Shown here piece by piece: positions 16,722 to 59,044 of a DNA stretch of 64,000 nucleotides. The notes under the pieces were generated by a model. That model had not been told where the DNA came from, did no database searches, and saw only the letters and a list, made by a program, of their open reading frames with translations. Location: NCBI RefSeq assembly GCF_036711975.1, contig NC_091966.1, positions 7,819,501 through 7,883,500 on the forward strand, given 5' to 3'. This stretch comes from Onthophagus taurus (taxonomy: Eukaryota > Arthropoda > Insecta > Coleoptera > Scarabaeidae). The position numbers and the translations under genes are program-made. Position 1 is the stretch's first letter. The number at the start of each line of letters is the position of its first letter.

Positions 16722-19700
16722 TTAAGGTTTAGGAACTTTAGTTTCGTTGGCCGGCAGTGGACAGATTTTTATGGTTGGTCTTGTGAACAGTCCGTTCTTG
16801 GTTCGAATTGTTACAACACGAATCACACCATCGTCGCCAGGATGGAGCTGTGTGATTCGCCCCATCTCCCATTTCAAAGGTGGAAGTTGTTCATTTTTTA
16901 CGATGACCAGATCACCGACAGTAGGAATTGGAGTTGGTGAGGTCCATTTGGATCTTGCTTGAAGAGTGGATAAGTACTCCATGGTCCATCTCTTCCAGAA
17001 GTCCTGGAGCATGCGTTGGAGGAGCTTCCATCGATCCAATCGATTTAGGGGAACCTTTGTGTAGTCTGGTTCTGAAATTAAACTATTTAGTGGTTCTAAA
17101 CATAAGAAATGACCTGGTGTCAGTGGCTGAAGATCGTTTGGATCACTCGATATCGGTGTGAGGGGCCTGGAGTTGAGCACGGCCTCTATTTGGGTGAGGA
17201 CGGTGTAGACCTCCTCGAACGTAAGACGTTGATCTCCAATAACTCGAAGCAAATGGGACTTTACTGATTTCACGCCTGCTTCAGCGAGACCATTAAAGTG
17301 AGGTCCACCAGGTGGATGAAAAATCCAATGGAGTCCTAGACGTGTTCCCGAAGCTTCTGCCATCTCTTTTAATTTATTGTTCGCTCCAACAAAGTTAGTC
17401 CCTTGGTCCGACAGGATTAAAGAACATCGACCTCTTCGTGCTATGAATCGACGTAATGCGGCTATGAATGCTTCAGTGGTTAAATCTGTAACTAATTCGA
17501 GGTGAATAGCCTTGGTGGACGTGCAGACAAATACGCAAAAATACGACTTAACAGACCGGGAGCCTCGAGTGCGATTCAATGTCGTGTAGATAGGGCCAGC
17601 AAAATCCACAGAGACGGTAGAGAATGCCCTCACATCAGCCACTCGACAAGAGGGAAGATCCGCCATAAATGGGGCGTAGGACCTTGGTTTACATCGGAAG
17701 CATCGTATGCATTTGGAGATGACACGTTGGATCACTTGTCGAGATGATATTATCCAAAAATGTTGTAGTACGATAGATTGTAAAGTTCTTGGTCCCGGAT
17801 GTAGGTAAGTTTGATGAATATCTTGCACAATTAGTTCACTTAAACGTGATGTTTTAGGTAATAGCACAGGGTGTTTATGATCGAACGGTAGTGTTGCGTT
17901 TTTTAATCTACCACCCACCCTGAGAAGCTTGTCTCGATCGACAAAAGGAGCCAATTGACGATATGGTTTTAACAATGGTTTATTTTCTTTGATAGCAGTG
18001 AAAAGTGTAGCAAAATGCTGATTTTGAATAAATCGAATAAGAATATGGAGTGAGTTTTGAATCTCAAAGGGAGATAAAACTAGAGAATAATATCGTTTTT
18101 GTTTTTGACAATGAAGAATAAAACGATACATGTATGCAAGGATACGTTTGATTTTGTTGATAGAAGAAAACTTATTGAGAAGAGTGGATAAAATGTGAGT
18201 TTGCACCTCAGTAGAATTAACTTGAAGAACTCTTTGTTCATTGTGTATCTCTTTTATTTCAGGATTGATGCGACGATGAGCTGGCCAATTTTTTGGAGGA
18301 CATCGGAGCCACGAGGGACCTTCCCACCAAAGTTGTAATGGGATTAAGGTTTCAGGAAAAAGACCTCTTGAACCACAATCGGCAGGGTTTTCCAATGAAG
18401 GTACGTATCTCCAAGAAGACGATGGTAAAATTTCCTGAATGTAATTGACTCGATTGGCGACAAAGATTTTCCATCGAGAGGATAATGATGCAATCCAAGC
18501 TAAGGTAACTTGTGAATCTGACCAGGCGGTAATTGAATCAAAATTAATTTGAGGCGATAAAATTTCTTTTAGATTCTCCAAGAGATTGACAAGTAAAACA
18601 GCTGCCAAAAGTTCCAATCGGGGAATGGAAGTTGATTTTAATGGAGCCACTCGTGATTTGGCGCAAAGAAAAGTTGTTGTTATTGATAAATCAGATTTTT
18701 GACAACGCAGATAAGCAACAGTACAATAACCCACTTGTGATGCGTCACAAAATAGATGGAGTTGAATTGACTGAGTTTTTAAAGGAATAGTTAAGCGAGG
18801 TAAGCGTAAGTTTGAAAGAAATTTAAGATTGTCTTTAAACTTTTGCCAATTTTGAACGATATTGTTTGGCGGTGTTTCATCCCAACCACTCTTTAATTGC
18901 CACAATTGTTGAATGAAACGTTTTGCTTTCAGAGTACAAGGAGTAAGAAATCCCAACGGATCGTAAATACGTGCAATGTCTGACAAGATAGATCTTTTCG
19001 TACAAGGAGTATTTCGACTGGTATGGGAATAGGAAAAATGATCAGTAGCAGGATCCCATTGAAGCCCGAGGACCTTGATATAGCTGATTTCATCGTAGTC
19101 CATTGAAACTGGATGTTGTAAGTCATCTTTTGATACTGATTGCAGGATATTGGAGCAGTTACTTGCCCATTTTCTGAGCTCAAATCCTCCCTTTTTTAAA
19201 AGATCTATTGATTCTTGCTGTAGTTGGCAAGCTTCTTCAATGGATGCAGCGCCAGTGACGATGTCATCAATATAGACATTGTTTTGTACAGCCTTTGAAG
19301 CCAATGGAAATTCATGCTTGTAAAGATGTGCAAGTTCAATAAGCGTTCGAAGTGCCAAAAATGGAGCAGATGAGACACCGTAAGTAACTGTGTTTAGAAC
19401 ATATTCTTTTATTGATTCATCAGGTGAAAATCGCCATAGAATTCGTTGGAAATCTCTATCTTTCGGTGAAATTAGAATTTGCCTGTACATTTGCTTTATA
19501 TCACATGTAAATGCGAATGGAAAACATCTAAATTTCAATAAAATTTTAACGATATCTTGTTGTAATTTAGGTCCAATTAAAAGAGCATCATTTAATGAGT
19601 GACCATTGGAAGTAACAGACGAGGCGTCGAAAACCACACGAAGTTTGGTGGAGGCGCTTTCTGGCCGTAGTACGCAATGGTGAGGAATATAATAAACGGA

Positions 19701-21815
19701 TTTCGAAGACACTTCAGGATTTGCGATAAGCGACATGTGCCCTGAATCCAGGTAATCTTTCATAAAATTGACATAATCGTTTTTTAGGGACAGATTTTTC
19801 AATAATCTGTTTTCTAAAGAAGTGAATCGTTTTAACGTTGATTGATAAGAACTACCCAGTATGGGTTCTTGGTTTTTGAAAGGAAGTGAAACAATAAATC
19901 TTCCAGCTTCAGTTCTTACATAATTTTGCTTAAAATGATTTTCACATTGATTCTCTTCCAAAGTTAAAGTAGAACTTCTTGGAATTGATTCAAGTTCCCA
20001 AAATCTTGGAAGGGATTCATCTAAGAAAGCGTCGGTAGTTGATAGGCATGTAGATGTTGTTGATGAAATAGAAGATTTTCCAATCAAAATCCAACCGAAA
20101 ATGGATTCTAAAGCCACAGGATCATTGGGTTTGTTTTGAATGCGTCCGCTGAGGAAAACTTGTGGAACCAATTCTGCGCCAAGTAGGAGATCCACTTCCA
20201 TGGAATTGCAATCGGGTTCAGGAGTGAAGTTTAAATGTTTAAGATGAGGATAAGCTTTAATAATGGATTGTACTGAAGGTTGATGGGAACAAATACTAGG
20301 TGTTATGAGAGCTTTGAAGTCTAAGGATGGTTCGGAATGTTGAATCGGTTGAACATGACATTGAACGGAGCCTTTGTTGCATATGGATGTCATGGAGTTG
20401 AGTCCTCTTATCTCTAAAGAAGAGTGATATGAACGAGGAAGACGTAATTTTTTTGACAATTTATCGGTGATAAAGTTGGACATACTGCCCGAATCAATTA
20501 AGGCTCGTACGAAGTGAGACTGTCCAAATCGATCTTTAATTTTCACAAATGCTAATGGTAAGATTACTCGTTGATGTTCGTTTTGATTTAACGGCTGTTT
20601 GATGTTCCACGAGGTACCCACATGAACTGAAGAAGGTTTTTTAGTATCAAAGTGAAGAGATGTATGATGATGTTGTTGACACATGCGACATCTATGGGAA
20701 GATGCACAATTTTGAGTTGTATGTTTGGAACTTAGACAGTTACGGCACAAGTTATGTTCTCTTGCTATCGATAGACGTTCAGCAGATGATTTGGCGTTGA
20801 AAGTTGCACAACGATAAATTGGATGTGATTCTTTGCATAATAAACATTTAGGAGAAATCGAATTTGTCTCAAGCTTTAGATTTGTGACTTTCTCTCTAGG
20901 ATTATTCTTTATACGATTCATGAAAGGTTTTTCGTTGGATGTTAATACAACAGAATCTAATGCTTTCGCTCTTTTTTCTAGAAAATCTATCAACTGAGGA
21001 TATGTTGGAATCTCAAAAGAAGTGTGCTCTGATTCAAAAGTGGTTTTAGTTTGCGTATCTAGTTTCAGCAAGAGCAAATTAAATAATAGAAAATCCCAAT
21101 CATCGACTGGGAAACCCAACATACGAAAACCTTCTGTATTTTCTTTAAAGGTATCTATCAACGTTCTAAAAATTTTTGAAGATTCCTCTTTAATAGGTTT
21201 TAAGTTTAAGATTTCATGGAAGTAAAGGGTGGCTAGATGCCTCTTGTTTTGGTAACGTCCCTTTAAAGCGTTGTAGGCGATTTCGTAATTGTCATTGGTG
21301 ACCGGAAAGCCTTTTAAAAGATTGAAGGCTTCTCCTTTTAAGGAAGTAAGCAGGTATTGATACTTGGCTATTGGCGATAGAGATGTGTTTTCGTGAACCA
21401 TGGTTTTGTACAAGTCGAAGAAGGTATGCCATTCTTTGTAATTACCATCAAATGTTGGAAGTTGAAGTTTGTTTAATTTAGGTGTTGCAGTTATCGGAGA
21501 AGAAATCGTGGATGTCGGTAGATCTGACAGATTATATAATAAAGCTTTGATTTGATAATATTCTGAATCCACCTTTTTACGAATAGCATCTTGGGCATCG
21601 AAGTCGACTTCTTCAACCAGGCCAATAATGGAATTGTGTGCGGCCTTAAAATCATCGTAGATTTGCGAAACATCATTGGCTCTTTCAGCAAAAATTTGAT
21701 TTTGCATAGGATCGGAAGGGTTAGTAGGTAAGGCACGTCCATATGTGAACGTTTCAGTTATTTGATTAATGAATATATTGCGTTTTAAGGTTAACTTAGC
21801 GAGTTTATCACTCAT
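16722..21815 (-). CDS. BEL-Pao Gag-Pol polyprotein
   Basis: About 1697 residues from the ATG at 21815 (MSDKLAKLTL). The frame is open farther upstream only through low-complexity sequence. Domains in order: a Gag region with the family motif LQLPTFDGNYKEWHTFF; cysteine/histidine knuckles near residues 390-450; an aspartic protease with ALIDSGSMSNFI; a reverse transcriptase with YIDDIVTG; an RNase H with FCDASQVGY; an integrase with a histidine/cysteine zinc segment, VDFAGPI and SDQGTNF; and a C-terminal chromodomain-less tail. The arrangement and the protease-RT-RNaseH-integrase order are those of the BEL-Pao superfamily. The frame looks whole. Confidence 0.95.
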   Translation of the reverse strand: MSDKLAKLTLKRNIFINQITETFTYGRALPTNPSDPMQNQIFAERANDVSQIYDDFKAAHNSIIGLVEEVDFDAQDAIRKKVDSEYYQIKALLYNLSDLPTSTISSPITATPKLNKLQLPTFDGNYKEWHTFFDLYKTMVHENTSLSPIAKYQYLLTSLKGEAFNLLKGFPVTNDNYEIAYNALKGRYQNKRHLATLYFHEILNLKPIKEESSKIFRTLIDTFKENTEGFRMLGFPVDDWDFLLFNLLLLKLDTQTKTTFESEHTSFEIPTYPQLIDFLEKRAKALDSVVLTSNEKPFMNRIKNNPREKVTNLKLETNSISPKCLLCKESHPIYRCATFNAKSSAERLSIAREHNLCRNCLSSKHTTQNCASSHRCRMCQQHHHTSLHFDTKKPSSVHVGTSWNIKQPLNQNEHQRVILPLAFVKIKDRFGQSHFVRALIDSGSMSNFITDKLSKKLRLPRSYHSSLEIRGLNSMTSICNKGSVQCHVQPIQHSEPSLDFKALITPSICSHQPSVQSIIKAYPHLKHLNFTPEPDCNSMEVDLLLGAELVPQVFLSGRIQNKPNDPVALESIFGWILIGKSSISSTTSTCLSTTDAFLDESLPRFWELESIPRSSTLTLEENQCENHFKQNYVRTEAGRFIVSLPFKNQEPILGSSYQSTLKRFTSLENRLLKNLSLKNDYVNFMKDYLDSGHMSLIANPEVSSKSVYYIPHHCVLRPESASTKLRVVFDASSVTSNGHSLNDALLIGPKLQQDIVKILLKFRCFPFAFTCDIKQMYRQILISPKDRDFQRILWRFSPDESIKEYVLNTVTYGVSSAPFLALRTLIELAHLYKHEFPLASKAVQNNVYIDDIVTGAASIEEACQLQQESIDLLKKGGFELRKWASNCSNILQSVSKDDLQHPVSMDYDEISYIKVLGLQWDPATDHFSYSHTSRNTPCTKRSILSDIARIYDPLGFLTPCTLKAKRFIQQLWQLKSGWDETPPNNIVQNWQKFKDNLKFLSNLRLPRLTIPLKTQSIQLHLFCDASQVGYCTVAYLRCQKSDLSITTTFLCAKSRVAPLKSTSIPRLELLAAVLLVNLLENLKEILSPQINFDSITAWSDSQVTLAWIASLSSRWKIFVANRVNYIQEILPSSSWRYVPSLENPADCGSRGLFPETLIPLQLWWEGPSWLRCPPKNWPAHRRINPEIKEIHNEQRVLQVNSTEVQTHILSTLLNKFSSINKIKRILAYMYRFILHCQKQKRYYSLVLSPFEIQNSLHILIRFIQNQHFATLFTAIKENKPLLKPYRQLAPFVDRDKLLRVGGRLKNATLPFDHKHPVLLPKTSRLSELIVQDIHQTYLHPGPRTLQSIVLQHFWIISSRQVIQRVISKCIRCFRCKPRSYAPFMADLPSCRVADVRAFSTVSVDFAGPIYTTLNRTRGSRSVKSYFCVFVCTSTKAIHLELVTDLTTEAFIAALRRFIARRGRCSLILSDQGTNFVGANNKLKEMAEASGTRLGLHWIFHPPGGPHFNGLAEAGVKSVKSHLLRVIGDQRLTFEEVYTVLTQIEAVLNSRPLTPISSDPNDLQPLTPGHFLCLEPLNSLISEPDYTKVPLNRLDRWKLLQRMLQDFWKRWTMEYLSTLQARSKWTSPTPIPTVGDLVIVKNEQLPPLKWEMGRITQLHPGDDGVIRVVTIRTKNGLFTRPTIKICPLPANETKVPKP

Positions 21816-22457
21816 GATTGAAACCAAAAGAAAAGTTTCAAAAAAAAAAAAAAAAAAATAATCAAAATAAAAATTAGAATGCTTCCAAAGGGAAAAGAAA
21901 TCGTCAAAAAATCGAGCAGACAAATATATGAAAAATAAAGATTCCAAAGGGAATGAAAACTTGCGTAAACAATCGCAAAAAAAAAAAAATTCTAAAGGCA
22001 AATTAATGAGTAATTAATAAATTTCCCTTTAAAGAAAAAGAAGAAAAAATAAAAATTAAATTCTTTAATAATAAAGATAGAAAAGAAAGAAAAAATAGAA
22101 ATCCTCGACAAAAAATAAATTAAGAAAAATTGTAACTTCATAAACTGATGTATAATTACGTATTCTAACAATAAGTTTAAAAATAAAATAAGTGAAGAAA
22201 ATAATTCTTGTTTGCAAATGACTAAAATAGCCGTAACCACTTTTTTCAGGTAACCAGATGTGCACCAAGTTGGTTTTGATGAATCGATAACCGTGAAAAA
22301 AAGTGGTTTTTGAAAGAACGGATGGCGACCAAATGTGAATAATGGACTCGATAACGGAAAAATTGAATGATAATTAGCGATAAGAAAGGCTAGCAATCAC
22401 CAGAAAACAATGAAAAAAATCCGAAATCGTCGTTGCCATCCGGCTCGAAGGACCAAA

Positions 22458-33352: not shown

Positions 33353-36300
33353 ATGGAAGTGAATAAGGACGAGGCGGACCGATGCATTGAAATCGCCGAA
33401 AACGCTATCCTTGAAAGGAACCGAGAAAAGGCAAAGAAATTTCTTCAAAAAGCCGAACGATTGTACCCCAGCGAAAAAGCAAAAGGTTAGTTATCATCGA
33501 TTAGTTTACTTTCAACACAATGACGTGTTCTTAACATTACTTAATTTTATTAGTGTTACTTTCGAAAATCGAACTAATGCCGCCCTCAAAGGAACCAGAA
33601 ATTAAGCAAAGAAAACCGGCCCCTAAACCGGAAAAACCAGCTGAACCTGAGTACACTACTGATCAAGCTGAAGCTGTGAAGAGAATTAAAAAGTGCAAGG
33701 ATTATTATGAAATTTTGGGGGTTAGTAAGGATTCCACTGATTCTGACATTAAAAAGGCTTATAAGAAGATGGCTTTACAATTACATCCAGATAAGAATAA
33801 GTATCCTGGGTCAGCAGAAGCTTTTAAAGCAATTGGTAAGTTGGTTTACGAATTATTCTGCCCTTTTATTAATTTTGTTATTTCTCATTATTTGAATTTG
33901 ATATATTTAAATGTTTTAAAATTAGTAAAATTGATGTATTTTTAAATTAAAGAATGTATTTTGGAGGCGGAACAAATGGATTCCTGAAAAATACCTGTAA
34001 TAAATTCCACTATTCAAGTCATTATTTAGAAATCTAGTAGAAATAAATTGCATAGCACTGATATATGCATGCATCCTCTAAACACAAACGTTATCAAATA
34101 AAATCAATTGTAAAAATATGTTTTTAAATGACAAAGCCCTGTAAAGGTGTCCATAGAAACTTGATCATACCATCTAATATATCAGCACCTCAGAGGTAAG
34201 GTGTGTTAAGTCACATTTTTTGCGAAATGATTTATCTCCACTATGTGTATTTGTTTAAACATTAAGTCGACTTTCAAATCTCACCTTAACAATTAGAGGT
34301 CAGATGTGTTAAGTCACATTTTTTGTAAAATGAGTTATCTCCACCATATGTATTTCTCTAAACATTAAGTCCACTTCAAATCTCTCTCTTTAACAATTTT
34401 GAGTTTGTGACTTAACACACCTTACCTCTTAGGTGCTGATATATTCCTGACTTTGACCATTTAGATGTCTCATGCCAAGAGAACTAGTCTTCAGTAGTTT
34501 AAAGCTTTCTTTATAACTCAGCACTATATACCTATTTTTAGTTTTAATGAAAACAAAAAAGGCCATCATCTATCCTGGCACTAAAGGTGAAATTTAATAC
34601 AAGGTCAAAGGTTAGAACAGCATAATTTTTTGTTTAGTCATGTGACGATTACTTCTCACATTTACTGATTTGACATTATAATGAATTTGTGTGGTTAATG
34701 AGTTTTGAGTATCTGAAATGTTTACGTTTTTTATTTATTTATTTATTTTAATTTGGGATATATACAAGGGGACCATAATTAAGTATCCACTAAAAACCGA
34801 TTAGTACAAGAAAAGCAACAACAATAAAAAGAAAATTAAATACAAACTGAATTAATAACAAAATTAAATTAATGACACATGTTCAAGCTCAATATACAGG
34901 CTGAGTCAGAAAGAATGGGCTATCCAAATATCGGAGACGCTAGACACTAAAATATGACGTTTTAATCCATACTCTTATACAGATGTTGGTGTTTTTTGAG
35001 GTACAGGGTGTTGAAAGTTAAATTCCTATTTCGAAATTTATTCATAATTTTTAAGGTTTTTCTGCTATTAACACAAAAATTTGGTAGTTTTATATTTTCG
35101 AGCATGAGTGATATGAATTTGAAACTTGTTTTGTGATTGCTCGTAGAGAGCGCTAGATACACACTAGCTTATTTTAGGCTTATTTTTCCGCCCATGTTTC
35201 GACAATTGCTTGTTAATTGTCAATATTCTTCTAATTTCCATGTGCAATAATCACCAATAATCAAATGCCACAAATGCCATATTGAGTTTTCTAACATTTT
35301 CTTGGCAAGATTCTTGTCACTGATAAAGCGACGTTTACAAGAGGGGTTCTTTCAATTGGATAAACAATCACTTATGGGATTCTATGAATCCACATGCTGT
35401 GAGGGTAAGACATTTTAACACAAGTTTGAAGTAAATATTTGATGTGGTGTAATAGCCAATTTTTTCATTGGTCCATTTGAATTCATTTGATTTTTCAATA
35501 TGGACACAATTGAAAGATATGGTGTACAAAAATATGACTGCAATTCGAAATAATGATCAAATGTTATTTAATATTTAAAGGTCTTTAAAAACGCGAATTG
35601 TAAAATCTGTGAGGTGAATGGTGCATACTTCAAAAATGTACTTTAAATTCTATTGTTATTAATTAATTGTTATTGTGATCAATTATTATCATTAGTATCG
35701 TTACTGATTGCTACAGTTACTGTGTGTTATTGATTTTACCGGTTTCAGGCTGTAAGAAGGTCCTTAACATTCGCAAAAGTTAGTTTGTAATGTACCTTAT
35801 AACTTATAACTGTCCTAGGAGTGTAAAGTGACATATCGGTATTGTAAAAATGACGTATTATTAATTTGCTGCCACTGTTTGAACTCAGTATAACATTTTT
35901 CGTATCTCACTTTCGACTTGGTTGGAATAAGTGCTTGCATAGCTTCCTCAGCACTTTCTAGCACGTTTTCAGGCAAATTAATGTTACTCATTTTACAAAT
36001 TATTGAATTTTTAAAACAGAAATTTTTTTTATCTACGACTGCTTGGATAAGTCATCATTACCGCACTCATTTGAAGTGATTTGAGTTACGTAATGAAGTT
36101 CATTACCGCACTGGTTTCATTACGTAACGCATTTTTAGCCTAATCAGAACAGACTTAATTTATTGAAACGAGCAACAATACAAAAGAAAAAGTGCTATCT
36201 ACTTACAGAGAAACAATACTATTTATTATATACATTTATTGTTATGTTTCTACATTTCGAAACACTTATTCCAGATGAGTAAACATGTTGTTGAAACTGA

Positions 36301-42000: not shown

Positions 42001-45000
42001 TGAAACTGAACAAGATCTTTCTGAATTACACTTGAACTCAAAGATACTACAAAATGAATTACCTAATGTATTAATAAAATAAAAAATGGATTTTTACGTT
42101 TTCTGGTTAATCTCGGCCCAAATGTAACATAATGTTTTCCTCTAACGATAATCCCTTTGCCGAATTCTTCTTCATTCAATGCTTCGTCAACGCCGAATCC
42201 GTCATCGTACAGAATTCTTCTATGAACCTAAAAAGGATTAAGATTAAAAAGTGCAACATCAATAATTACGGTGATTTTGCCATAAGTTCTAGTTGCCCAG
42301 ATTTTAGACTGGTTCCTCCTTGAGATCTATCTGTAATGACAGCAAATTCGAAGTTTTTATTTTCATCTCGTAAACAAATTTTTGAAGTGACTGGAAAATA
42401 ATTTGACGAAACGTTTTCTGCAGTATATAAATTGAAAGTTGGTCGAAAATTTCGTTTTCGTTTAATCATTTCTCCACCATTTGAGTCAGTATAAAAAATG
42501 TCATTTGTGTTTAATCCAGTTTTAAATCTAGATATTATTTCTTTTCCTTTATTATCCCTAATAATATTTTAATTTTAAGTAATTTTATATTATATTTCAA
42601 AAGTTAACTTGAATGTATTAATAAGGGATGGTACGATTTTAAGCAGCCCGTATTTTCGAAGTTATACGACTTCTTAAAATCGTGCGGTTTGCCGGATTAT
42701 TCTATAATATACATACTTTATATTGATTGGGCCAATTAACCAATCAAATTCGATGTAATTCCCAATTTCATAAACTCTAACAATTTGCTTTATCCATGGA
42801 TTAAATATTTGATGAAGTTCATCAACTAAATTTCCTTTATACGTAGTTGTATGAACGGTTGTAAATAATTTTGTGGCATCTGGAAGTGCTGGTCTAAAAA
42901 CATAAGCTCCAGACGATCTTGTATAATCGGCGTAATTATCACCAAAGGCGCTTATGTAATAATAAAACTCTTGTTGTAATTTAATAATTTCACCATTTAA
43001 TCTTGCGCTGCATAAAAGACCGGTGTTTTCATCCACGTGAAAACCATTTAAATTATCTCCTAAAGAATACTGATTTACCGTTAAATCAGGTTTTGCGCAA
43101 AATTTGCAAACACCATTCTTTTCAAATGAGTAAAGTTTTACACCGAGTGATGGTAAATCTTCCGCATAAAAAACTAGTTCATATTTAGCAGGATTATGAA
43201 TTTTGTAGTCAATGAAATCATCGATTGATGGAAAGATATCGAAAGGTACCTTTCTGTCTAAAATAATATGGTGAGAATTTAATAAAAACTTTTTGATGGC
43301 TTTAATACCGTTTGAATTAAAGATGGTAAAACATCCAGATGACACTGGTAGTCGTATATAATGTGAAATAGGTGCGCTTAAAGGGTTATAAATTGCGAGA
43401 ATAAATTCTTCTTCTTGGGTTAGCTTACAAATGCTTACATTTGCATAAATACAATAGATTAAGTTTAGGTCAATGTCGTCTAAAGGACTTGTTGGCAGAA
43501 GAATACTGTAAAAAAAAAATTTAATTTATTTTGTTACTACATTTTCGATTTTGTCTCAATTTGTTTATTCCTGTACATCGAGTTTAATTTATAATTATAC
43601 ATGGCTTTTATTTATGTAGTGTTGTTTTTGTTTGTTTCTTACTACATAAGATTTTGTTAATACATACGATAATACATCACTCGTTTGCATGATATTTTTT
43701 TCAAAAGCTTCAGTTAACAATCTATGATAATCATTAGCAACATGTTGTTTTTCTGTGCCAGTAATAGCGTCATGATGTTGCATAATAGCTAAAGCTTCTT
43801 GCATTGGTCTTAAATTGGCAATTCTATCATCGATTTGTGGAAAGAAACTAGTTACTTGTTTTGTTATCTATTAAATAAAATAATAAGCTAAATAACAAAA
43901 AAAAAAGATATCTACCTGCAAAATATAGTTACATTCCCTTTCAAATCTCTTTGAATTTGGCCTGGAACTATAAAATCCAGTCCAAAATGAATGTTGATCA
44001 CTTCCATACGGAAAAAAATCATCAAATTTTATATCATAACTTTGTCTGTTCGATGCTAATTGTTTTTTAATAGCTTTTAGATAACAATTTGGGGTGGAAT
44101 AAATTAAATTAATTCTTTGCCCGTGAAAACTATGATTCAAAACTTTGAATCCACTAAAATTAATTAATTATTACTTTAATAACATTTTTAACTCTTTTTT
44201 AGTTTTAGTCATACTGAATAAGTTTATCTAAATTGGAAAAATGTCGTAACGCATCCTGAAAGTGAAAATCACCACCCATAGCTACCATGATATGATTAGT
44301 AGTATAAGAACTAGCCACTATATTAATATATTCTGCAAAGCGAGCTATCATCCCATCCAAATTATATTCAGGCGAAGAGTCATCGTCGACGATGGGGTTA
44401 TCATTGCAAAGAAAATCGAAACAGAACAAAAAAGGGGAAGTGTATCCGTTGAATATGATGGAAACAAAAATTTTTGAATCCAAACTGGAACTTGTTTGCC
44501 AAATTAATTCTGGCGTTTTACTATAAAATCTTTGTTGTCGATCTTGGTGATCTAATCGACCAATAAAGATTGCTTCGTAACTCATTTCAGCAAAAATTTT
44601 TGCCATTTCTCTGCTATGTCCAAATGTATCTACTTGCCATGCTGTCTTAGGTATTGCACATGAACCAAACGTTTCATTTAAGAATCTAAATTTAAATTTT
44701 ATTAATTAAATCTAATAGTTTTGTTAAGATTTACTTGAGTCCAATAGTAAATTGGTCAATTATGGCTTGGTAATTAGTGCATGCTTCATCATTCATCGTC
44801 CATCCTCCACCAACAATTTCTAATTGACCGTTTGTAATCAATGCTCTCAAATTTTCTTTTGAATTATCACTGGCTACATTCCACCATTTATGTAAATAAG
44901 CCGTTTCTACAAATATAAATCTAAAGAAAAAGAGGAATAATATAATTAAGTTTTAATTCGAATGCCTTCGATTTGAATTTTCCATAAGTGCAATGATAAC

Positions 45001-45319
45001 TGATTCTATGATATAATGAACTCCTGATTTGTTATTTTTCGATTTAGCTGGAAAACTTTCGATTATATAAGTCGATTTAAACTGAATAATTTATTACTTC
45101 CCCAATAGTATTCGTCGAAAGTCTTGATCCATCCAACATCTAGATGAGTATGTGCTACTATATGAACGTTCAGTTCATCTGGTTGAGTTGTATGACAAGA
45201 CTGAAATTAATTATCTAACCAATAATAATATTTAAAATTGAGATAAATACTTCGCAAGATTTGGAACATTTTCCGAATGCATTAACTATTATTGTGTTTA
45301 AAATCCACAGGAAAAGCAT
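39004..45319 (-). CDS. MAN2B1: Lysosomal α-mannosidase A (GH38)
   Basis: A retaining exo-α-mannosidase of the lysosome that trims mannose from glycoprotein glycans. Thirteen exons join in phase to 995 residues: 45251-45319, 45098-45200, 44966-45047, 44735-44920, 44215-44685, 43916-44153, 43668-43867, 43309-43505, 42717-43257, 42281-42557, 42098-42227, 41781-42046, 39004-39231. The signal peptide is [16 protein letters not shown]. The zinc motif reads HTHLDVGW: the His and Asp ligands are kept, but the Asp between them is Leu. The nucleophile is in WQVDTFGHS, the predicted acid/base in MGGDF, and the late zinc His in [11 protein letters not shown]. Two introns (44921-44965, 45 nt; 42228-42280, 53 nt) require GC donors. 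The last intron is 2.5 kb of repeats. Ends 150 bp after gene B's stop, in the same direction; probably functional but the most diverged of the three. Confidence 0.92.
39665..40790. repeat. CTAG-rich palindromic satellite array with higher-order repeat
   Basis: Monomers of about 122 bp alternate ATTCGG(G/A)TTTAGCCG, a short CACGTCTC...GACGG hairpin, CGGCTAAACCCGAATG, and runs of CTAGTTCTAGGTCTAGTGTT or its complement. A variant stretch with CATCTAACGCTGAATAACAA recurs 511 bp apart (39737 and 40248), and the word GGCTGAAGACGATAC recurs 520 bp apart. So about four monomers form a higher-order unit repeated twice. Non-coding; lies in the last intron of α-mannosidase A. Confidence 0.9.
41100..41640 (-). 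mobile_element. Truncated RTE/BovB-like LINE, 3' half of reverse transcriptase
   Basis: On the minus strand fragments read [13 protein letters not shown], then [20 protein letters not shown] with DGFRMWIWG, then [13 protein letters not shown]. This is the usual C-terminal order of insect RTE-type reverse transcriptases (thumb and C-terminal region). Stops and frame changes are frequent, and nothing upstream of the thumb remains. Confidence 0.75.
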
Positions 45320-45469
45320 TTTTAAGTTAAAAATTCTTAGATGTTAATTTTTAAAATTAATATTTTCGACACATTAATGACAATGTCATATATAACAAAA
45401 AAATAATAATAACATCTTAATTGCATAGTTACTTTATTACATCAACTTCATTGTTTGGATTATCACAAA

Positions 45470-48400
45470 TTAAAATGTAACTAAAAACGTTCTTATTTGC
45501 ATTGGCGCCAAATTAACCATGGTATCTTTTAGTGCAAATTCAGGTTTGTTATATACAAGTTCTTGCATTTTTGAATTCTCGTTAACACTTCCTAAATTAC
45601 CCTGACCAGTCCAGCGGAAACGTTCGTTTTCTTCAAGCAGTTGATTCCCTCCCAAAGTCATTTCTCGAATTGAATTAATTTCGAAATTGGTGAATAAATC
45701 CTATAATTTTTATTATTGCATTATTTTATATTGTTAAGTGTAAAAATAAGGAATATTTACTTGTAAATCCACTGTCACTGTTTGAGATAATTCGGCATCG
45801 TTGTTTCTTGGAAAAACGTGTTCAAGGCGTATTAACAAAGTTCTTTCAAGAGATTTCCACGGTTCTAATGTGAGAATTTGTACATTTTGTGGTAAAACTT
45901 TTTTAATACCAGAGTACTAAAATATATTTTAATTATTTTCATTATCAAAAGTCAAACCCTCTCAATTTAGAGCTTGATATTTTCGCAACCGTTTGATGAA
46001 AAAAATAGTAGTAAACTTTGCTGTAATCGCTGAACATTTCTACAAAACATGTGTGAATTTAAAAATTTTAGGCGGCGCGGTTCTTCTTTTATTGCGAGGT
46101 AAATGAAAAAACTGCGATGTATGTTTTATATAGACTGGACGTCGCGTCGTTATTATTTTGTGTAGGTAAAATAATAAGACCCGGCACATTTGCGGCTGTT
46201 TACCAACCCAACCCAACATTTTTTCTTGAGATGTTTGTGATTGGGATGATATTTCTAATTACAACAAACATTACCGTTATTTTTTTACGGTTACAAAGAA
46301 ATCAATCTCTAAATTGAGATGCCTTTGGTACTGTTAGTAATTATTTTTAACTATATTTACCTCCTTATTTAAAGAACTCCAAAGATTAACATTATTCGTT
46401 AAGAAAGTCCACGGGGCAAGTAATTTTCTTTGCGCCACATCAATTTGAGTTGCTATCGCGGAAGATTCACCTAAATCCAATTAACCATTAAATTAGGCAG
46501 TACAAATTATAAAGTAATAAAAAAATTTACCATCTGTTGGTTTTGTTTTTCCAAATGTAACATACAATTGTCCTCTTGCATACAATCCAACACCGTATTG
46601 CATTTCATTCAAAGCTTCACCAACACCGAATGCGTCATCTCTTAATAATCTTCTATGCAACATTAACTCTACTTGTCCAGATGCTAAACTACTACCGCCT
46701 TGAGCCCTATCATTTTGAACGGCAAAATCCATGTTTTTCGTATCATTGATAGAAATTCTTGATGTAATCGGATAATAATTTCCAGCAACGGGTTCGCTGT
46801 ATTCGCGAAGAGGATAAGTTGCTCTATGATCTCTAATTCGTTTAACCATCTCTCTTCCGTTTGAATCCGTATAGAAAGTGTCTCTGCTATCTATGTTTGT
46901 TTGGAATCTGCTGATGATTTCTTTTGGTAAATTATCGTCTATATCAATGTTTCCTATTAACCAATCGAATTCGACGTGATTTTCTCCTTTGTAATATCTT
47001 ATAATTTGTTTAGCCCAAGAACTAAATACTTGATGAACTTCTTCAACTAAATCTCCTTTGTAAATTTCCATTTTAATGTTTTCTTTTGGGAAAGATAAAG
47101 CATCTGGATAATTAGGATCCGGTCTGAAGATATAGGCACCTGACGCTCGTTTGGCGAATTCGGAATTGTCACCAATTGCACCAATATAATACATAAGTTC
47201 TTGAGTTACTTCCACGGTATTTCCATTTAACGTAATTGATTTCAAAAGATTGGTGGTTGTATCCATTTCAAAACCATTTAGATCATCTCCAGCAACATAT
47301 TTTTCTTTGGGATTATCTATTTTGGTTGTTGTGGTTTTGATAGTGGAACTCTTTGTAATTTTGTACAATTTTAAACCTAATCCTGGGATATTTTCAGCTT
47401 TAAACAAAAGATCTTTCATTGGTGTTTCGGATCCATCCATAAATTTAAAGTCGTCAATCGGTGGGAGAATTTGATATGGAATTTTATTACCTAAAATTCA
47501 AATTAATACTTAAAAATTACTATGTTTTTGATCCTACCATTAGGGTCTTCAATATCATAAGCTTCATTCTCAACTGGTAACCTAACAAAAGTAGAGACAG
47601 GTCTACTTAGCGGATTATAAATAGCCGCTATGAAATCTTTATCAGACGTTAAAGAACAAATCGAAACATTAGCTTGCAAACAACTTTCTAGGCCTAAATC
47701 AATTCCCTCAGAACCTGAAGTTGGTAATAATACACTAAAATAAAATTTAATAATTAATTCCTCATTTCAATAAATTAATAATTTCTTACGAAAGTAATTT
47801 ATTAACACGTTCTGTACTTTGTTCAATGGCAATCGTTAAAATTCTATGATAATCATCTGCAACGTGCTGCTTTTCAGTTCCAGTAATAGCATCATGATGT
47901 TGCATGATTCCAATCGCATCTCTTAAAGATTTCGTTGCATCATCTTTATCACCGTCTTGAATGAATGTCGATAATTGTTTAACGATTTGTAAAAGATTAT
48001 TTCCTTGCCTTTCGAATCTCTTTGATGTAGGTCTTGAGGAATAATATCCGGTCCAATAAGCATGAGGATCACTTGCATACGGGAAAAAATCGTCCGTTTT
48101 GTATTTGAATGCTATCTGTGAAGCTGTCGCTTCTTCATTTACAGCTTTTACATAACAAGACGGTGTTGAGTAAATGAGATTAATCTTTTTATCTCCGTAA
48201 TATTGGGGGAAATCTTTGAATCCTCTGTAATAATATTAATGTGGAGATTTTCTTATTTATTTATAACATAATAACTTACTGCACTAATTTATCCATATTT
48301 GAAAAATAAGAAAGGGCATCTTGGTAATTAAAATCATCACCCATTGTGATGATTATGTTGTTTGTTGTGTAATATTGGGCTTGGGTGTTTATAAAATCAG

Positions 48401-51400
48401 CAAAACCTATAATCTGTTTTAGTTTTTTTGGTATAATTATTTTTTTTTGTGTAATTAATTTATTTCGTACCTTTTCTTCATAGTTATATTCAGGACTGGA
48501 AATATCATCAATAATTGGGTCGTTATTGCATAAAACGTCGAAACAATAACCAGATGGGGCGCTGTAGTGATTATATAATACTGATGTGAATATACTTGAA
48601 AGACCACCTTTAAAAAAATGTATAATATAACAAAAAATATAACTTGAAGTTATTTACCTAAACTTTCACTTCCTTCCCAAATAATTTCTGGAGTTTTAGT
48701 TGTTAACCGTTCGCTTTTATCTCTCCAATCTAATCTGGAAAAGAACAAGGCCTCGTAACCCATTTGGCTAAATATTGATGCCATTTCTTTACTGTGACCA
48801 AACGGATCAATTTGCCACCCAATTTTTGGTCTTCCACATTCACCTAAGGTATCATTTACGGTTCTAAAATTTAAAAATGTTTGTATATTAATGTATGCTT
48901 ATTATTCTTTTCTTTTTACTGTAATCCCAGAGTGAATTGATCGATAATTGAGTGATAATGAGCTGCTGCTTCATCATTCATACTCCATGCTCCACCAACA
49001 ATTTCCAATTGTCCATTGTCAACTAGTTCTTTAAAGTGTTCTCTAGCTCTTTCTGGTTGATCTTGCCACCATTTATAGAAAAATGCTGATTCTACTTGGA
49101 TAAATCTTAAAACAAAATTTTTTTAGTATTTTCTTTTTTATTTTAAAGTAGGTAGATGAAATAATGAGGAAAGCTAGATTATTATACATATATTTATAAG
49201 GAAAGTTTGAAGCTTTTTAAAACTATTTACTGATACAAACACACATTAATGTTTTCCACTGTTGAAATATAAAAAGAATGACTGCTTTTTATTGTAGAAG
49301 GATTTCTTTAATTCTCAGAACATGAGCAATTATGGATAAAAATTCATCAGCGCTTAATTTCCCTTCTCATTCATTCCAGATGAAACAAAAATCATTTTTT
49401 GTCTGCAAATCAAACAATATCATGTTGTGAAGTGCTAGTTTTGTTTTATGATACATTACTTTTTGGTGGTAGAAGCTGAAGGTATTGCTGAGTTTATGAA
49501 CTGCGCATGTATCACATATATTATCAACCTGTACTACAATTATTTAAAGACTGCAAATCGTTCTAATTAACATTTTCAGTCCCAAACAGGTATACCCCAT
49601 GCTACGCTATTTTCATTAGCATTGAACCTCATGTGTATCATATTGGTTGACACAAAACAGCTCTATTGATCAAGCCGTAAGCCGTTTGATTGGTTTGGCA
49701 TTGCTTCTAACGTTATGTAAACCATGGATGCTGGTGAAATACGGGACCAACTGAATGTATCTTTTTACGAAAGTGATAGCAGTGATAGTGTTCTAAATAT
49801 ATTTAGAAATAATTCATTACACAGACTTGGATTATGAAAGTGATGACAGCAGGTTAGGGTAACTTAATCGCAGCAAAATAGAAAAAGATGTTCTAGAGGA
49901 TGAAGAATCTTTAAGAAGATGATTGATAAATGTACTAAATGCTAAATATCTAAATAGCGTAGTCAATTATTTTGAGGAAATCGTTCCGGGGTTGGCTGAA
50001 GTGGCGACAATATTTATACAAATTATGCCTCTTACGCTAGGATAGAAAATATTCTACGTAGACAATTAGCTTTTATTCAAACTGTAATGGAGTTAGTTAT
50101 GTCGCTGTCGGGAGAGTCTTCGCTTTTTTGGACTACAACAGAGCAAAATCACTTAACGATGTCTCTGCTCAACTCCCGATATATGGGACATCTTTACGTC
50201 GAGACTTGAAGCAGTTCTTGGAAATGTCCACTCCATTTATAAGGCTACTGTTGTATAATCAATGGATAATGCAGTTATTAGAGAACATCTTGTGCAGTAT
50301 TTGCTACCGACTGAACGTGGAGAAGACAAAAAAGACAAGAAACATAATATAAGTGGCGACCGCAAACTACGTTGCAAAGAACATTCTTAAAGTTAGAACG
50401 AAGTATATTGGTTATTCGAAGCAAAAGTATATGTGTATTAAATATTTTTTTCAAAAATGTTACACACGGGCATCAGCTTTTCGGAAGCTTCCATCGGAGC
50501 TTTCCATAACAGCTGTTGGCATCAAGGTATCGACAGGACAAAATCCGGTTTTATATGAAGGAAAGATCATATTTTGTAGTAGTGTGTTTAATATTCCGCT
50601 ATCTGTAAAGACAAGGAAGATATCGGCTTGTAAAGTAGATGGAAATCAAGGGTAAAAGTTTGTTGCTGAGAGATTAGTTTCTGTCGTTGCGCGGATAAAA
50701 AAAAACTCAACACGCATTTATAAATAATAATTGAGACATCCTTGTAAAAAAATCCAATTAGATTTAAAAGTAAAAATTTTAAATACATATTTTCGCGACT
50801 TTTAATCTTGTGTAAAATGTTTAGCGGTTGGTAACTTTCCACATTTTAATTAAAACTCTAAAATCTAGCTTTCCTGGAATTTTCCCGAAATAAAATTAAT
50901 TTTTGTGTTACCTCCTCTCAGGGTTTTGTCTTAAAGCTTCAACAACCGAGCTGATGATATATTGAACACTCGCTCTTTGAATTGAATTCCTTGCTATTAA
51001 TAAATTTTTATTAATACATCTTCGAATTAAACTAATTTAAATTGATTACCTCCCCAATAATATTGATCAACAGTTTTTAACCATCCGACATCATCGTGAG
51101 AATGTGGAACTAAGTGAACGTTAAGAGTATCCGAAGAAACTTTAGGACATGACTTAAAAACAAAGAAATTGTTAAATTAATTGATTAATAATCGATTTCT
51201 AATTTTAAACCACTCAATAAAATAACAACAATTAAACCACTTTTAAATGATGGTATCTTTTGATCCAGTCGATGTTTTTTGTTTAATTAATTTTTAAATA
51301 CATATTTTTAATATACTTACCTGATAACCGCAACCAGCTTTAGCGTTGTTGTTATGAGTTATGGGAATTGCAGAAATTGTCGCGAAAATAATCGCGAATA

Positions 51401-52231: not shown

Positions 52232-55200
52232 TTAAATTTTCATTTTGATCTCGATGACAAACGTTTTTATTTCCATGGGTTTTAAAGTTATAATAAAATC
52301 ATCTACTATCTCAGAAGTTGTTGGATTTTTGATATTGTGTTTAAAAGATATCCATATATCATTCGATTTCGTCTGGTCATGATTGTACTTGGTAACTAAA
52401 GAGTTCCATTTTAAAGTATCTTGAACATCGTCGTTGGTGTTCATGTTATCTAAAACCTTCTTAGCCAAAATCGCCTCCATTTTTTCGCCCAAATCTACGT
52501 TTTGGATCGATTTATTTTCAATCCATTGATTAGCTCCTAACGTAGTTTCACGATACGAAATAATATCAAATGATGAAAAAAGTTCCTACAAGAAAAACTC
52601 ATTTTATTTTCAATTTTAATTTAATTTTAACTGAATACTTTTAGATTTACTGATACTGGTTTAGAATATTCCAAATCTTCATCAGCTTCAAATACATGCT
52701 CCAAACGAAGTAAGAAATCCATTCCTTTCCATGGTTCTAATGTTAATATTTGAACATTATTGGGTAAGTTTGTTTGTAAACCTGAAAACTAAAATAACAT
52801 TTTTAACAATTTCTACATAATTATAATAATAATATGTTGTTACCTCCATTTTATATGTTTTTCTATATTGATCAGGATTGAGATTATTTGTTGGCGATAA
52901 AAACGTCCAAGCTGATAAAACTTTACGTTGAATAACATCATGCTCTTGAGCCGCTACAGTATCATCTCCTTTACTTAAATATGGCCCTAACACTAAATAA
53001 TGCGTTCCTCTTGCGACTAAACCTTTCCCAAACGCTTGTTCCATCAATTCCTCTCCCACCCCAAAAGCATCATCATGTTTGCAAGATCTATGTAACATTA
53101 ATTCAAGTTCGCCATTGTTTAAACTGGTTCCACCTTGAGCCCTATCGGTTAAAATAGCGACTTCAACATCATCTTCAACACTTCTCATGCTTATTTTTGT
53201 TGTCACCGGGTAATAATTTCCAGAAACTGGTTCTGAAATATTAAGTTTCCAAGTTGGTCGGAAATTTCGAACTCTCTTTAACGTCTCTCTTCCATTCGAA
53301 TCAGTATAAAAGATTGAATCTGATTTAAGATTGGTTGTGTATCGAGTGATGACTTCTTTTCCAGCGATTGTACTAAAACATATTAGTTATAAAAAAGAAA
53401 GTTATAATGAAGTTATTGTACTCATTTGGAATTGGACCAACAACCCAATCGAATTCAATGTTATTTTCTTCATTATAAACTCTTAAAATTTGACTTGTCC
53501 ATTCATTAAAAACTTGGTGAAGTTCAGAAACAACGGAGCCTTGATAAAGCCTATATGATACTTTTTTCGTCATTTGAATTGGTTCGGAGGAATTTGGACG
53601 GAATATGTAAGCACCTGATGATCTATTTGCGGAAATTTCGTTGTTACCGACGGCACCGAAATAGTACAAGAAGTCTTGAGTAAATTGAACAGTTTTTCCA
53701 TTCATTTGAATGTTTTCAATTTTTCCTGTGTTGGGTTCTATATTTACTCTTATGTTCTGCAAAGATGTTCGTAAATTTAAAATTAACTTGAAGTACAGAT
53801 TATGGTATTTTTAGTTATAATTGGTTTCTTTTGACTTAAAATGAAGGAAAATCACGGCTACAGGGCCATAACAAAGTGGTTTTGTGGAATCGATGAAGTT
53901 ATTGATTGTCTTGTATCCAGGAATAATATTGATGGTAACAATAGAAAGACAAACATTGTGATCAAGTTTCTATTTCCAAACTTGCAATAATAAATTTGAC
54001 CTGCTGCAAAGACATATTCAAGAAATAACGACACTGGGTCACTGAGAAGACGTATTCGAAGAAGAAGTGTCGTAAGAAAGCTTTGAATATTACTTACTGA
54101 GGAATTTATTTATGTTCGTACGTTTTAATATGAACAAAAACCTAAAGTCTACAAATTTTACACAAGACTTAATCTGCCTATCCAAAATAAAATTGAACAA
54201 TTGAATCTACGTCTGAGTAATACATGAACCTTTGTAACATGGTTACATCATTTTCCTTCGTCATAGATCCACTATTGATTGTAAAATATTGTGAAAAGGT
54301 AGATAAATTATCGGTGGTCACAACTTTTTTCATTTTTTTGTGTATAGTTGCGTTTAGATGTACGTAGGGCAACAAATATATGCCACATCAAATTACCCTA
54401 AATGATGTATTTGGCAATAAAGACCAACGTATTATTCAATATGTGATGTCTTGAATGCGATGCAATCTGGAATTATCATGTTAAGTTGTTTTTGTGTCTG
54501 TGTAACTTGGTCTTATCAAGAACTTATCTAGTTTAATGTAGGTCAACTTATCTAATGGTCTGTTTTGGAAAAACATTTTCACATTAATTTAAATTTCTAA
54601 AGTTAATCGAAATTATTTAGTTATGAAGTCTGTTTTGAAAAACCATTTTTAGTTTTTGCGATACAATTTTTTTAGGTTATTCGACATTTTTTATACCATT
54701 GAAGTTTTTTGGATCATCTTAAAGGTTGGTGCAGAAATAATCTCATTAAATATGTTTATGATATTATCAACAATTATTATCAATTAAAGCATCTACTTTT
54801 CTATGATAGAGTCTGTTTAGAAAAATCACTTTTAGTTCTTGAGATAACAAATTATTAAGTTAATCGAAATTTTTGATGCTATTGAAGTTTCTTGGATTAT
54901 CTTAAAAACTTGATACAGAAGTGATCTGATTAAATAGGTTTATGATATTATCATCAATTATCAATTAAAGCATCTACTTTTCTATGATAGAGTTTGTTTA
55001 GAAAAATCACTTTTAGTTCTTGAGATACAAATTTTTTAAGTTAATCAAAATTTTTTATGCAATTGAAGTTTTTTGGATTATCTTAAAAACTTGGTACAGA
55101 AATCATTAAATATGTTTATGATATTATTATCAATTAAAGCATCTTTTTCTATGATAGAGTCTGTTTAGAACAACCACTTCTAGCTCTTGAGATACAAATT

Positions 55201-58200
55201 TTTAAAGATAATCCATAACATATCTACCATACATAGACGTAATAGTGCAACTTTAAGTTATATACAATAGACAATATAAAGCAAAAAAAAATTGTAAGTC
55301 AGAAGGAACCAAATACACCTATAATACAATTTTACCCCTTGTTTCAGTTGATAACCACTTTGTGCTTGTAGAATATTATTTCCAGAAGATTTTTGTACAT
55401 AATACGATAAAAATCCCAAAGCAGGAACTTGTTCTGCTTTAAAAACTAATTCAGCTTTTGATGCACTAAATCTACCTGGGATTTTTTGTATAAAATCGGC
55501 TGTTGGAATTAAATCACGAGGTATCTTTGTTCCTAAATAATAAAATATAAATATGCAAAAGATAACTTTTAAATTGTTGTAACCATTTGTTACCATTTGA
55601 ATCAAGTACATCATAAGCACTACCTGTTACTGGTAATCTTACATGATAGTCTACAGGTCTGCTTAACGGATTGTATACGGTTACAATAAAATTATTTTCT
55701 TTTTCCGTAAAAGCGCATTGGCTGACGTTTGCTAGTAAACAAGATTCGAACTGTATTTCAGGCAACGGATCGTATCTCGGTTTATTCGGGTCGTGACCTG
55801 TTACTAGTTGACTGAAAATAAAAATATAAAACAGTTGTAAATATAAAACGTTTTATGACAAAAGACATAAAATCTTCAAGTTTACGACAGCATCGAGTAA
55901 ACAGCGAGATATAAAGTTTCAGGATACTTTTTAATTAAATAAAAAGTAAATGATTTTATACATTAGAATTCAAAATTTATTACCTTAAAGCAGTTGCTGT
56001 AATAAACTGGCACTCATCAAACCCTTTCGACAACATTCTCGCATAATCAAAAGCTACATGTTGTTTTTCAGTTCCTGTTATAGCGTCATGATGTTGCATG
56101 ACTCCCATTGCTTCGCGCATGAAATTTAAATCAACCCAATCTTCTGGACCCAAATCAACTAAACAATATAGTTGTTTACAAACCTAATAAAAAGGCGGTT
56201 AAAAAAATGTTAATGAAAAACGGATTTAAAATACTTGTAGGAAATTATTTCCCATTCGCTCAAATCGTTTTAATGTTGGTCTTGAGGTAAAATATCCTGT
56301 CCAATATGAATTAGGATCTGAGGCGTATGGAAAGAAATCATCTGATTTAATTGGAAATGAAATTTTTTTCTCTTTTCCATTGTCTTTAACAGCTTTTAAG
56401 TAACACGATGGGGTCGAATATAATAAATGATATTTAGATCCATTTTTTTGCATTTCATTTCCATATCTGTATGATTTAAAAAAATAAAATTAAAATAAGA
56501 TATGAAAAATGATTTAAATAAATTGGTGTTTGGTGCGATAAATTAGTTAATCGACAAAACTTACTGAATAAGCTTGTCTAAATTTTTAAACCACATATTC
56601 GCATCTTGATAATTAAAATCTTCGCCCATTGTAATAATTACATTGTCTGTGGCATATGAATTGGTAACATTATCAAGATACTCAAAAAATTCCTTTACCT
56701 AGAAGAAAAATCAGAAAGGAACATACCTTATTAATCTGTCTAAATTAGAGAACCACATATTTGCATCCATATACGTAAAATCACCACCCATAGTCAAAAT
56801 TAAGTTATCGGTTTCATAAGCGCTACTTTGCTTATCAAGATATTGTGTTAAATCACGAAACTAAAGTTAGTCACGTCAAGAATACATTTAAATGTAATTA
56901 CAAAACTTACTCTTTTATCGACGTTGTAATCGGGGCTCTTTTTGTTATCAATTATTGGTTCATCGTCGCAAAGTGTATCGAAACAAAAACCAGGAGGAGG
57001 TCCATAAGTGTTGTACATTACAGTTGTGAATAAGTCGGTGTTATTACCTAAAATTTTTGCTTTAGAAATAATGAATAAATGATTTGGTAATTGTGTTAGG
57101 TTGGCGCAATTAAGTTATTTTTCGTGTAATATTTTTAATTTAACAAGTAGTGAATTAAATAAGAAGTTGCAATAACTGAATCTACTTATTACAGTGAAAC
57201 CTCGATATAAGGGATTAATATGGGAAAGGGAGTGTCCATTATAAGCAAAAGTCCGTTATAGCAAAAATTTTCAATTTGCATTTTACGTGACGTCACACAT
57301 GGGTGGGCAACTACTATTTCACACTTTGAATTAACAAATGCTTAATTTATTCTATTGGGTACGTCTTCAGATGCACGGCTAAACCTGAATGTTTCTAGTT
57401 ATAGATTTAGTGTTAGTTCTAGTTTTACACTAGCACTGTTACTATGTAGAACTAACACTATACTTAGAACTAAAATCATTTGGGTTTAGCCGTCTTTAGA
57501 GACGTGCGGCTAAACCCAAATGATTTTAGTTCTAGGTATAGTGTTAGTTCTAGTTTTAGTTCAATAAAAATATACAACAATCTAACGCTGAATAACACCT
57601 AAACCTAACAACTAACACTAGCACTGCAACTAACACTAGACCTAGAACTAGAAATTCATTCGGGCTTAGCTGTGCGTCTCTTAAGACAGCTAAGTCAGAA
57701 TGTTTCTAGTTCTAGGTTTAGTATTGGTTCTAGTTTTAGTACAATAAAAATATACAACTAAAACTAGAGCTAACACTAGCACTAAAACTAACACTAGAAC
57801 TAAAATTCTATTGTTAGTTCTACTTTTAGTACAATAAAAATGTACAACAATTGCACTGAATAACAATTAAAGTAGAACTACCGTCCTTGATTGAGTTTAT
57901 CTATGAAAATGGAATAGAGCAACTTGAGGAATAATCCCGAGCTGGATTTTATCTATGACCGCTAACATTTATATTTAAATATACTGATGTTATTAAATAG
58001 ATAATATTCGCATATAATTCGCATATATTAATGCGAACACCGTTCTAACGAGGTCCGTTATATCGAAGTTATACAATATTATATTAACCTAAGCTATCAG
58101 TTGCACGCCAAACAAATTCGGGTGATTTTGTTTCAAATTTAAAACTTTTATCCTGATAATCGATCCTTCCCAATAATAACCCATCGTATCCCATTTGCGA

Positions 58201-59044
58201 AAACATCGAAGCCATTTCTCTGCTATGACCAAACGGGTCGATTTGCCATCCAACTTTCGGTATTCCGCAAGCACCGAAGGTTTCGTTCAATTTCCTTAAT
58301 CCCCAAGTAAATTGGTCAATTGTCGATTGATAATGAGTGGCTGCCTCGTCATTCATACTCCAACCTCCTCCAATAAACTCTAATTGACCGTTATTAACAA
58401 ACTTCTTCACGTTGTGTTTCATGAAATCGTGCTGTTTCATCCACCATTTCCAAAAGAAAGCAGTTTCGACGTAAATGAAACGTCTATCTTTATTTTTACG
58501 TAATGAATCCATCACTGAATCTAATATGTATTGAACACCCGCTTTTTGAATATCTTGTTTACCTTTAAATATTTAAATTTATGAATTTATTTTTAAATTT
58601 TAAGTGGTTATTTTATCTTACTGCCGTAATAATATTGATCAACCGTTTTTAACCATCCAACATCATCATGAGTATGTGGTACTATATGAACGTTTATCAT
58701 TCCAGGTTTTGTTTTATGACAAGACTAAATAAAGAGAAAAAAAAGACCTTGAAAGGTAGCAACATAAAGGTCAATTAAAGTTTTATCCCATAAATTAAAA
58801 AAAAAAATAAATAGTGATCATATAAATATTTTCATTCTAAAGTATCAAAGACCACAACAAAAGAGAACTAATTAAATTGATAACATTATATAAATAGAAT
58901 TAATTATCGTTTAGTCAACTATTTTGTGTTATTATTTCGTTATTAATTTTTAAGATTTGTTACCTCATATCCGCACTTATCAGAGGGAATCCAATGGCCA
59001 TACACTTGAAACACAAAAAACATGAGAGTTAATAAAAACCTCAT
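52232..59044 (-). CDS. MAN2B1: Lysosomal α-mannosidase C (GH38) with duplicated exon 5
   Basis: Thirteen exons plus one alternative give 1047 residues in phase: 58964-59044, 58622-58724, 58089-58562, 56911-57047, then 56727-56860 or 56565-56698, then 56235-56466, 55984-56183, 55594-55811, 55336-55532, 53422-53756, 52844-53372, 52639-52788, 52232-52585. The signal peptide is [16 protein letters not shown]. Zinc motif [18 protein letters not shown], nucleophile [16 protein letters not shown] and zinc His in [15 protein letters not shown] are all canonical. Exon 5 exists twice and includes the MGxDF acid/base segment. If both copies were included the frame would shift. The C-terminus is longer than in A ([18 protein letters not shown]). 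Introns hold a 181-bp tandem repeat and a pogo-type element. First gene of the three in transcription direction. Confidence 0.94.
54620..55215. repeat. Tandem repeat of ~181 bp in an α-mannosidase C intron
   Basis: About 3.3 units. Markers TCTATGATAGAGTCTGTTTA and AATCACTTTTAGTTCTTGAG recur at 54801, 54982 and 55149, with a partial unit from about 54628. Units differ by small indels (the last spacing is 167 bp). Non-coding. Confidence 0.85.
56565..56860 (-). other. Tandem alternative exons 5a/5b of α-mannosidase C
   Basis: Exon 5a (56727-56860) encodes [20 protein letters not shown] and continues with [20 protein letters not shown]. Exon 5b (56565-56698) encodes [20 protein letters not shown] and continues with [20 protein letters not shown]. 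Both are 134 nt, enter at phase 0 and leave at phase 2, and have AG acceptors and GT donors. They agree at 25 of 44 complete codons. The gap between them (56699-56726) is 28 nt, too short for a normal intron. Genes A and B have only one exon here. Confidence 0.85.
57192..58072. mobile_element. Non-autonomous pogo/Tigger-type element with nested repeat
   Basis: The left end CAGTGAAACCTCGATATAAG resembles the known pogo/Tigger terminus. The right end (CGTTATATCGAAGTTATA) is its eroded mirror, with CGGACCTCG continuing inward. No transposase lies within; instead a CTAG-type palindromic array (57360-57890) occupies the middle. Located in α-mannosidase C between exons 3 and 4. Confidence 0.6.
57360..57890. 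repeat. CTAG-rich palindromic array, third site
   Basis: Same vocabulary as 39665-40790: GCGGCTAAACCCAAATGATT, CTAGTGTTAGTTCTAG-type runs, and the spacer word CAATCTAACGCTGAATAACA. It has at least two hairpins of about 100 bp. More eroded than the array at 39.7 kb. Confidence 0.85.

Follow-up and report, generated by a model that had tools for sequence, protein, structure and literature searches.

The lysosomal alpha-mannosidase gene of the dung beetle Onthophagus taurus studied here (gene C) carries two versions of its fifth exon, 5a and 5b, and our results suggest that these are very probably an old, tandemly duplicated pair of mutually exclusive exons (MXEs) of the insect lysosomal alpha-mannosidase gene. 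This reading is based on the equal length and phase of the two exons, the short gap between them, the stop codon created if they are joined, the frameshift created if both are skipped, and the swaps of the same segment seen in other insects. The initial annotation had proposed that the exchanged segment bears the acid/base residue of the enzyme, and both the anatomy of the pair and the presence of the same dichotomy in other insects support it. Insects probably make two enzyme forms from this one gene.

Gene C lies in a 64,000-nucleotide stretch of the O. taurus genome, the whole of which was analysed and is called here the window. The features discussed are collected in the table. Splicing the 13 exons of the model that includes 5b gives a protein identical to the O. 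taurus database protein P0006. Five Pfam GH38-type families, spanning the N-terminal, middle and C-terminal domains, matched P0006 (the b form), each above its cut-off (279 bits for PF01074), and the best solved relative of the gene C protein is the bovine enzyme 1o7d. Judged by its predicted protein, gene C is a GH38 lysosomal alpha-mannosidase, MAN2B1-like, and has the domain set and the catalytic residues in common with the MAN2B1-type enzymes. It is unlike the bovine and jack bean GH38 chains at the site encoded by exon 5, where these read MGSDFQYE and MGDDFQYQ, respectively. As a separate observation, intron 3 of gene C (57375-57850) contains overlapping inverted and direct repeats, the best arms being 46 nt long, 98% complementary and 14 nt apart; this region looks like a palindromic mobile-element remnant.

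Table. Gene C, its fifth-exon region and the exon-5 counterparts in the neighbouring paralogues (positions in the window).
Feature	Positions	Strand	Details
Gene C, lysosomal alpha-mannosidase (GH38)	52232..59044	-	13 exons per transcript, 1047 aa
Exon 4, common upstream partner	56911..57047	-	donor gtaagt
Intron from exon 4 to 5a, 50 nt	56861..56910	-	pyrimidine share 0.65 before acceptor
Exon 5a, a-type	56727..56860	-	donor gtatgt
Gap between 5a and 5b, 28 nt	56699..56726	-	pyrimidine share 0.9 before 5b acceptor
Exon 5b, b-type, present in P0006	56565..56698	-	donor gtaagt
Exon 6, common downstream partner	56235..56466	-	from the splicing model
Paralogue A, aligned stretch with single exon-5 counterpart inside a longer open stretch	44211..44696	-	tblastn
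Paralogue B, single exon-5 counterpart	48279..48404	-	tblastn

The anatomy of the pair agreed in every respect with what had been described: the coordinates were correct, both exons measure 134 nt, enter at phase 0 and leave at phase 2, and all the GT and AG sites are in place. As had been claimed, a transcript with both exons is out, since in a joined 5a-5b the Arg at the junction is followed immediately by a stop codon, and a transcript with neither is also out, since skipping both shifts the frame. The claim that the gap is below intron size also proved right: none of the 12 introns in the model with 5b is as short, their lengths ranging from 49 to 1579 nt.

The two exons are identical at 25 of 44 residues and at 83 of 134 nucleotides. 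This likeness is not due to chance, because 5b shuffled by codon 20,000 times never matched 5a at more than 10/44 residues. Moreover, the differences between the exons are crowded at third codon positions (27/44, against 22/88 at positions 1 and 2; Fisher p 1e-4), and the nonsynonymous distance is 0.35, with a synonymous distance that is not computable, as in saturation. This crowding is as expected if selection at the protein level held both copies for most of their history, and fits the maintenance of 5a and 5b by protein selection since an old duplication.

The window contains two further lysosomal alpha-mannosidase paralogues, A and B, arranged in tandem downstream of gene C (42102-51158, minus strand). 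When the window was searched with both exons (tblastn, E <=10), each paralogue showed a single copy of the exon, in agreement with the initial annotation, and no significant match was found outside gene C and paralogues A and B that would represent a relic copy of 5a or 5b elsewhere in the window. Away from these genes, an open reading frame of 1763 codons (16722-22013, minus strand), scanned in three separate pieces, matched Pao retrotransposon peptidase, reverse transcriptase-like, integrase, DUF1759 and DUF5641 domains; by these matches it is a Pao/BEL-type retrotransposon polyprotein. A reading frame at 33535-33942 (plus strand) has a DnaJ domain match.

Next, we looked for the same pair in other species, as had been proposed. 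Exon sequences were labelled a-type by definition when the residue before the acid/base is Gly and the one two positions after it is Thr. Sequences in the protein database are grouped at 90% identity, so that a single representative usually hides two isoforms of one gene. The search with the 5a region matched 5 proteins, all of them a-type; the whole-protein search listed 120 of 4659 matches, and 120 of 138 were listed when the exon region of an a-type protein from a cockroach served as the query. Note that the 5a-region and whole-protein queries were 10 residues short at exon 8, which leaves exon 5 unaffected. Six of the 208 distinct proteins, all from other insects, have both types in tandem copies. 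The order is a-b in the ants (P0104 and P0128) and the wasp (P0129), as in the beetle, and b-a in the Lepidoptera (P0126 and P0127; b-b-a in P0125). Since the order differs between these groups, a single duplication is not proven, and the reversed order in Lepidoptera hints at more than one duplication or at a rearrangement. A second motif match in P0048 was rejected as false.

In support of a swap within one gene, the Thrips palmi isoforms X3 (P0057, b-type) and X2 (P0060, a-type), encoded on contigs of equal length, are 100% identical outside exon 5 and 60% identical inside it. Other pairs, each from one genus or species, followed the same pattern: Cataglyphis P0085/P0105 (98.5% outside, 64% inside), Spodoptera frugiperda P0148/P0201 (96% and 58%) and Glossina P0086/P0092 (87% and 53%). 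Among pairs with a flank identity above 85%, the mean exon-5 identity was 65% for a-b pairs (n=12, not independent), compared with 94% for a-a pairs (n=11) and 92% for b-b pairs (n=9). The dichotomy is found in thrips, ants, wasps, flies, moths and other beetles, and the a-type reaches beyond insects, since the Daphnia proteins P0157, P0162 and P0165 are a-type. The pair had been presented as a feature of one gene; it is indeed present in gene C, but its two types are widespread in insect lysosomal alpha-mannosidases.

We then compared trees built with and without the exon. The flank tree, from which the exon was removed, contains 198 proteins, 181 of them labelled and 17 without an a/b label; the remaining 10 of the 208 were left out because they had more than one exon-5 match or a length outside 850-1400. 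On the flank tree the a/b label changes 37 times (at least 30 of these forced by starred branches), compared with 4 changes when the same rows are placed on the exon tree, a count that is partly circular since the labels are set by the motif. When the eight motif columns were removed, the exon tree required 13 changes, still fewer than 37. Leave-one-out classification outside the motif was right for 78 of 89 a-type and 95 of 109 b-type rows. Some exons fit neither motif (20 of 221 rows), and some of these are mixed, with Gly together with Asn or His; 5a and 5b of the window, paralogue B and jack bean are among the labelled rows of the 221.

That the a and b types are separate paralogous genes, with the tandem exons arising as assembly or annotation mixtures, has almost no chance of being right: several genes for lysosomal alpha-mannosidases do exist in insects (paralogues A and B in this beetle; six in Drosophila, according to the available part of PMC4006722), but 5a and 5b lie 28 nt apart within gene C, the Thrips palmi isoforms are identical elsewhere, and A and B show one exon-5 copy each in the window.

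More serious is the possibility that 5a survives in Onthophagus as a relic that is decaying or seldom used, only 5b being spliced here while the pair functions in other insects. P0006, the Onthophagus protein seen, has 5b and no isoform label, and the pyrimidine tract before the 5a acceptor is the weaker of the two. In addition, 5a has diverged further than most exons of its type. Its best identity to another a-type is 67%, the 8th lowest of 90 (median 82%), and it departs from three columns with a conservation of 85% or more; 3 of the 90 rows, 5a among them, have as many departures (median 1). With the eight motif columns set aside, its sequence is slightly closer to the b-type (log-odds -3.9), and in the tree without the motif the rows nearest to it by path are b-type. 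Against this, 5a keeps an open frame, intact splice sites, the catalytic Asp and the GGDFTY motif, and its differences from 5b are concentrated at third positions. The main support for a relic is also weakened by the clustering of the database, because at 90% identity another isoform of gene C would be concealed; P0006 represents a cluster of 3 members, and the 5a form could be one of the other two. We consider a relic rather improbable, and a pair of functional, mutually exclusive exons remains our preferred reading for Onthophagus as well.

How would the choice be made? Each mRNA of gene C would take one of 5a and 5b. The gap contains a branch-site-like word, CTGAT, some 15 nt past the 5a donor as judged by eye, and at this distance the binding of U1 to the donor and of U2 to the branch site would exclude each other. 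Steric exclusion would then decide between 5a and 5b, as the spacing suggests, and splicing errors would be expected to end in nonsense-mediated decay. A gap of 28 nt against a minimum of 49 nt among the 12 introns fits such a block. RNA secondary structure was considered as a selector, and folding gave nothing notable (z -1.19). Since the 5b acceptor has the higher pyrimidine share and 5a sits behind a 50-nt intron, 5b is probably the default in O. taurus and 5a the regulated choice. These features resemble a known MXE system in which two homologous exons of equal phase give a non-productive product when joined and the branch site lies too near the upstream donor, causing a steric block, which for gene C is suggested by the spacing. 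Unlike in that system, the swapped segment of gene C bears the catalytic acid/base of a glycosidase.

The stop right past the 5a-5b junction could also be read as a regulatory poison switch, in which the ratio of 5a to 5b sets the amount of the enzyme, not its kind. This is very improbable, since the joined product would be hard to form across so short a gap and the a and b types also show consistent differences beyond the motif, as the leave-one-out classification indicates.

The Asp present in both exons had been predicted to be the acid/base residue, and this prediction proved correct: Asp292 of gene C aligns with position 270 of chain A of bovine 1o7d, which is Asp319. Likewise, Asp170 aligns with chain position 147, 123 residues before 270, which is Asp196, the residue usually assigned as the nucleophile. 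An offset of 49 converts the chain positions into these residue numbers. Numbers 319 and 196 are those given for the human enzyme in the part of PMC11931667 available, which has Asp319 as the general acid and names D74 as the nucleophile.

The catalytic Asp is thus kept in both exons and its surroundings change. Just before Asp292, 5a has Gly where 5b has Glu; two positions after it, 5a has Thr and 5b Asn. Among the 109 b-type exons the residue before the acid/base is Glu in 68, Asp in 34 and Asn in 7, and two positions after it there is mostly Asn or His, both distributions being partly set by the definition of the labels. The same change is seen directly in the Thrips palmi pair (GGDFTYQ vs GEDFQYQ). 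According to the accessible sections of PMC13204073, the residue before the acid/base is Ser318 in the lysosomal enzyme and Asp340 in the fly Golgi enzyme, and is named as a non-conserved subsite; the dyad Asn262-Ser318 (lysosomal) versus Asp270-Asp340 (Golgi) has been exploited to make inhibitors selective, and Asp340 and the catalytic acid are linked in their ionisation. In the alignment with the bovine chain, the other member of the dyad falls, by eye, on Gly235 of gene C. Taking these dyad data together with the Gly or Glu next to the acid/base, exon choice would therefore add or remove a charge beside this residue.

The exon swap would thus alter the surroundings of the acid/base, with Gly versus Glu or Asp before it and Thr versus mostly Asn or His two positions after it, and this may yield two forms of the enzyme that differ in subsite preference or in their response to pH. 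That one gene makes two enzymes with distinct preferences for substrates is plausible, because the residue beside the acid/base differs. A bolder proposal is that the swap, by toggling a negative charge, gives two linkage specificities and could supply cleavage of the core alpha-1,6 mannose (M5); we regard this as speculative and unlikely. In mammals that activity is assigned to a separate enzyme, MAN2B2, which prefers the M5 core mannose; Drosophila is without a direct MAN2B2 homologue, and the enzyme that removes this mannose in flies is, for the authors, "difficult to predict" (PMC4006722, in the sections available).

Mutually exclusive tandem exons are a known kind of arrangement, and the lysosomal alpha-mannosidase instance seems undescribed in the open-access literature listings covered, where no published description was found. 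A fly survey of mutually exclusive exons (Nat Commun 2013) may list the pair. The Kassiopeia resource (PMC3923563) is without 'mannosid' or CG6206, and 'mannosid' is absent from the main text of PMC7954323, as far as that text was available. The available text of the latter reports 9 MXE events affecting catalytic sites in its data set, among them fly CG42249, and gene C is like these in that exon choice would alter the active site of an enzyme. It is unlike the CG42249 type in that the change affects the residues around the catalytic Asp, which itself stays. One such pair, X2 and X3 of Thrips palmi, is already listed in the protein database, and many other insect entries carry isoform labels.

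Alpha-mannosidases of this type are usually regarded as housekeeping exoglycosidases. That an exon switch at the acid/base occurs across several orders of insects implies that selection has long favoured two forms of the enzyme. The a/b change sits at a subsite that serves to distinguish inhibitors of the Golgi enzyme from those of the lysosomal one (PMC13204073, in the part available), and offers a natural pair for studying how the neighbours of the acid/base set the specificity of GH38 enzymes. In flies, the exon-switched gene would be a candidate for the trimming of the alpha-1,6 core mannose.
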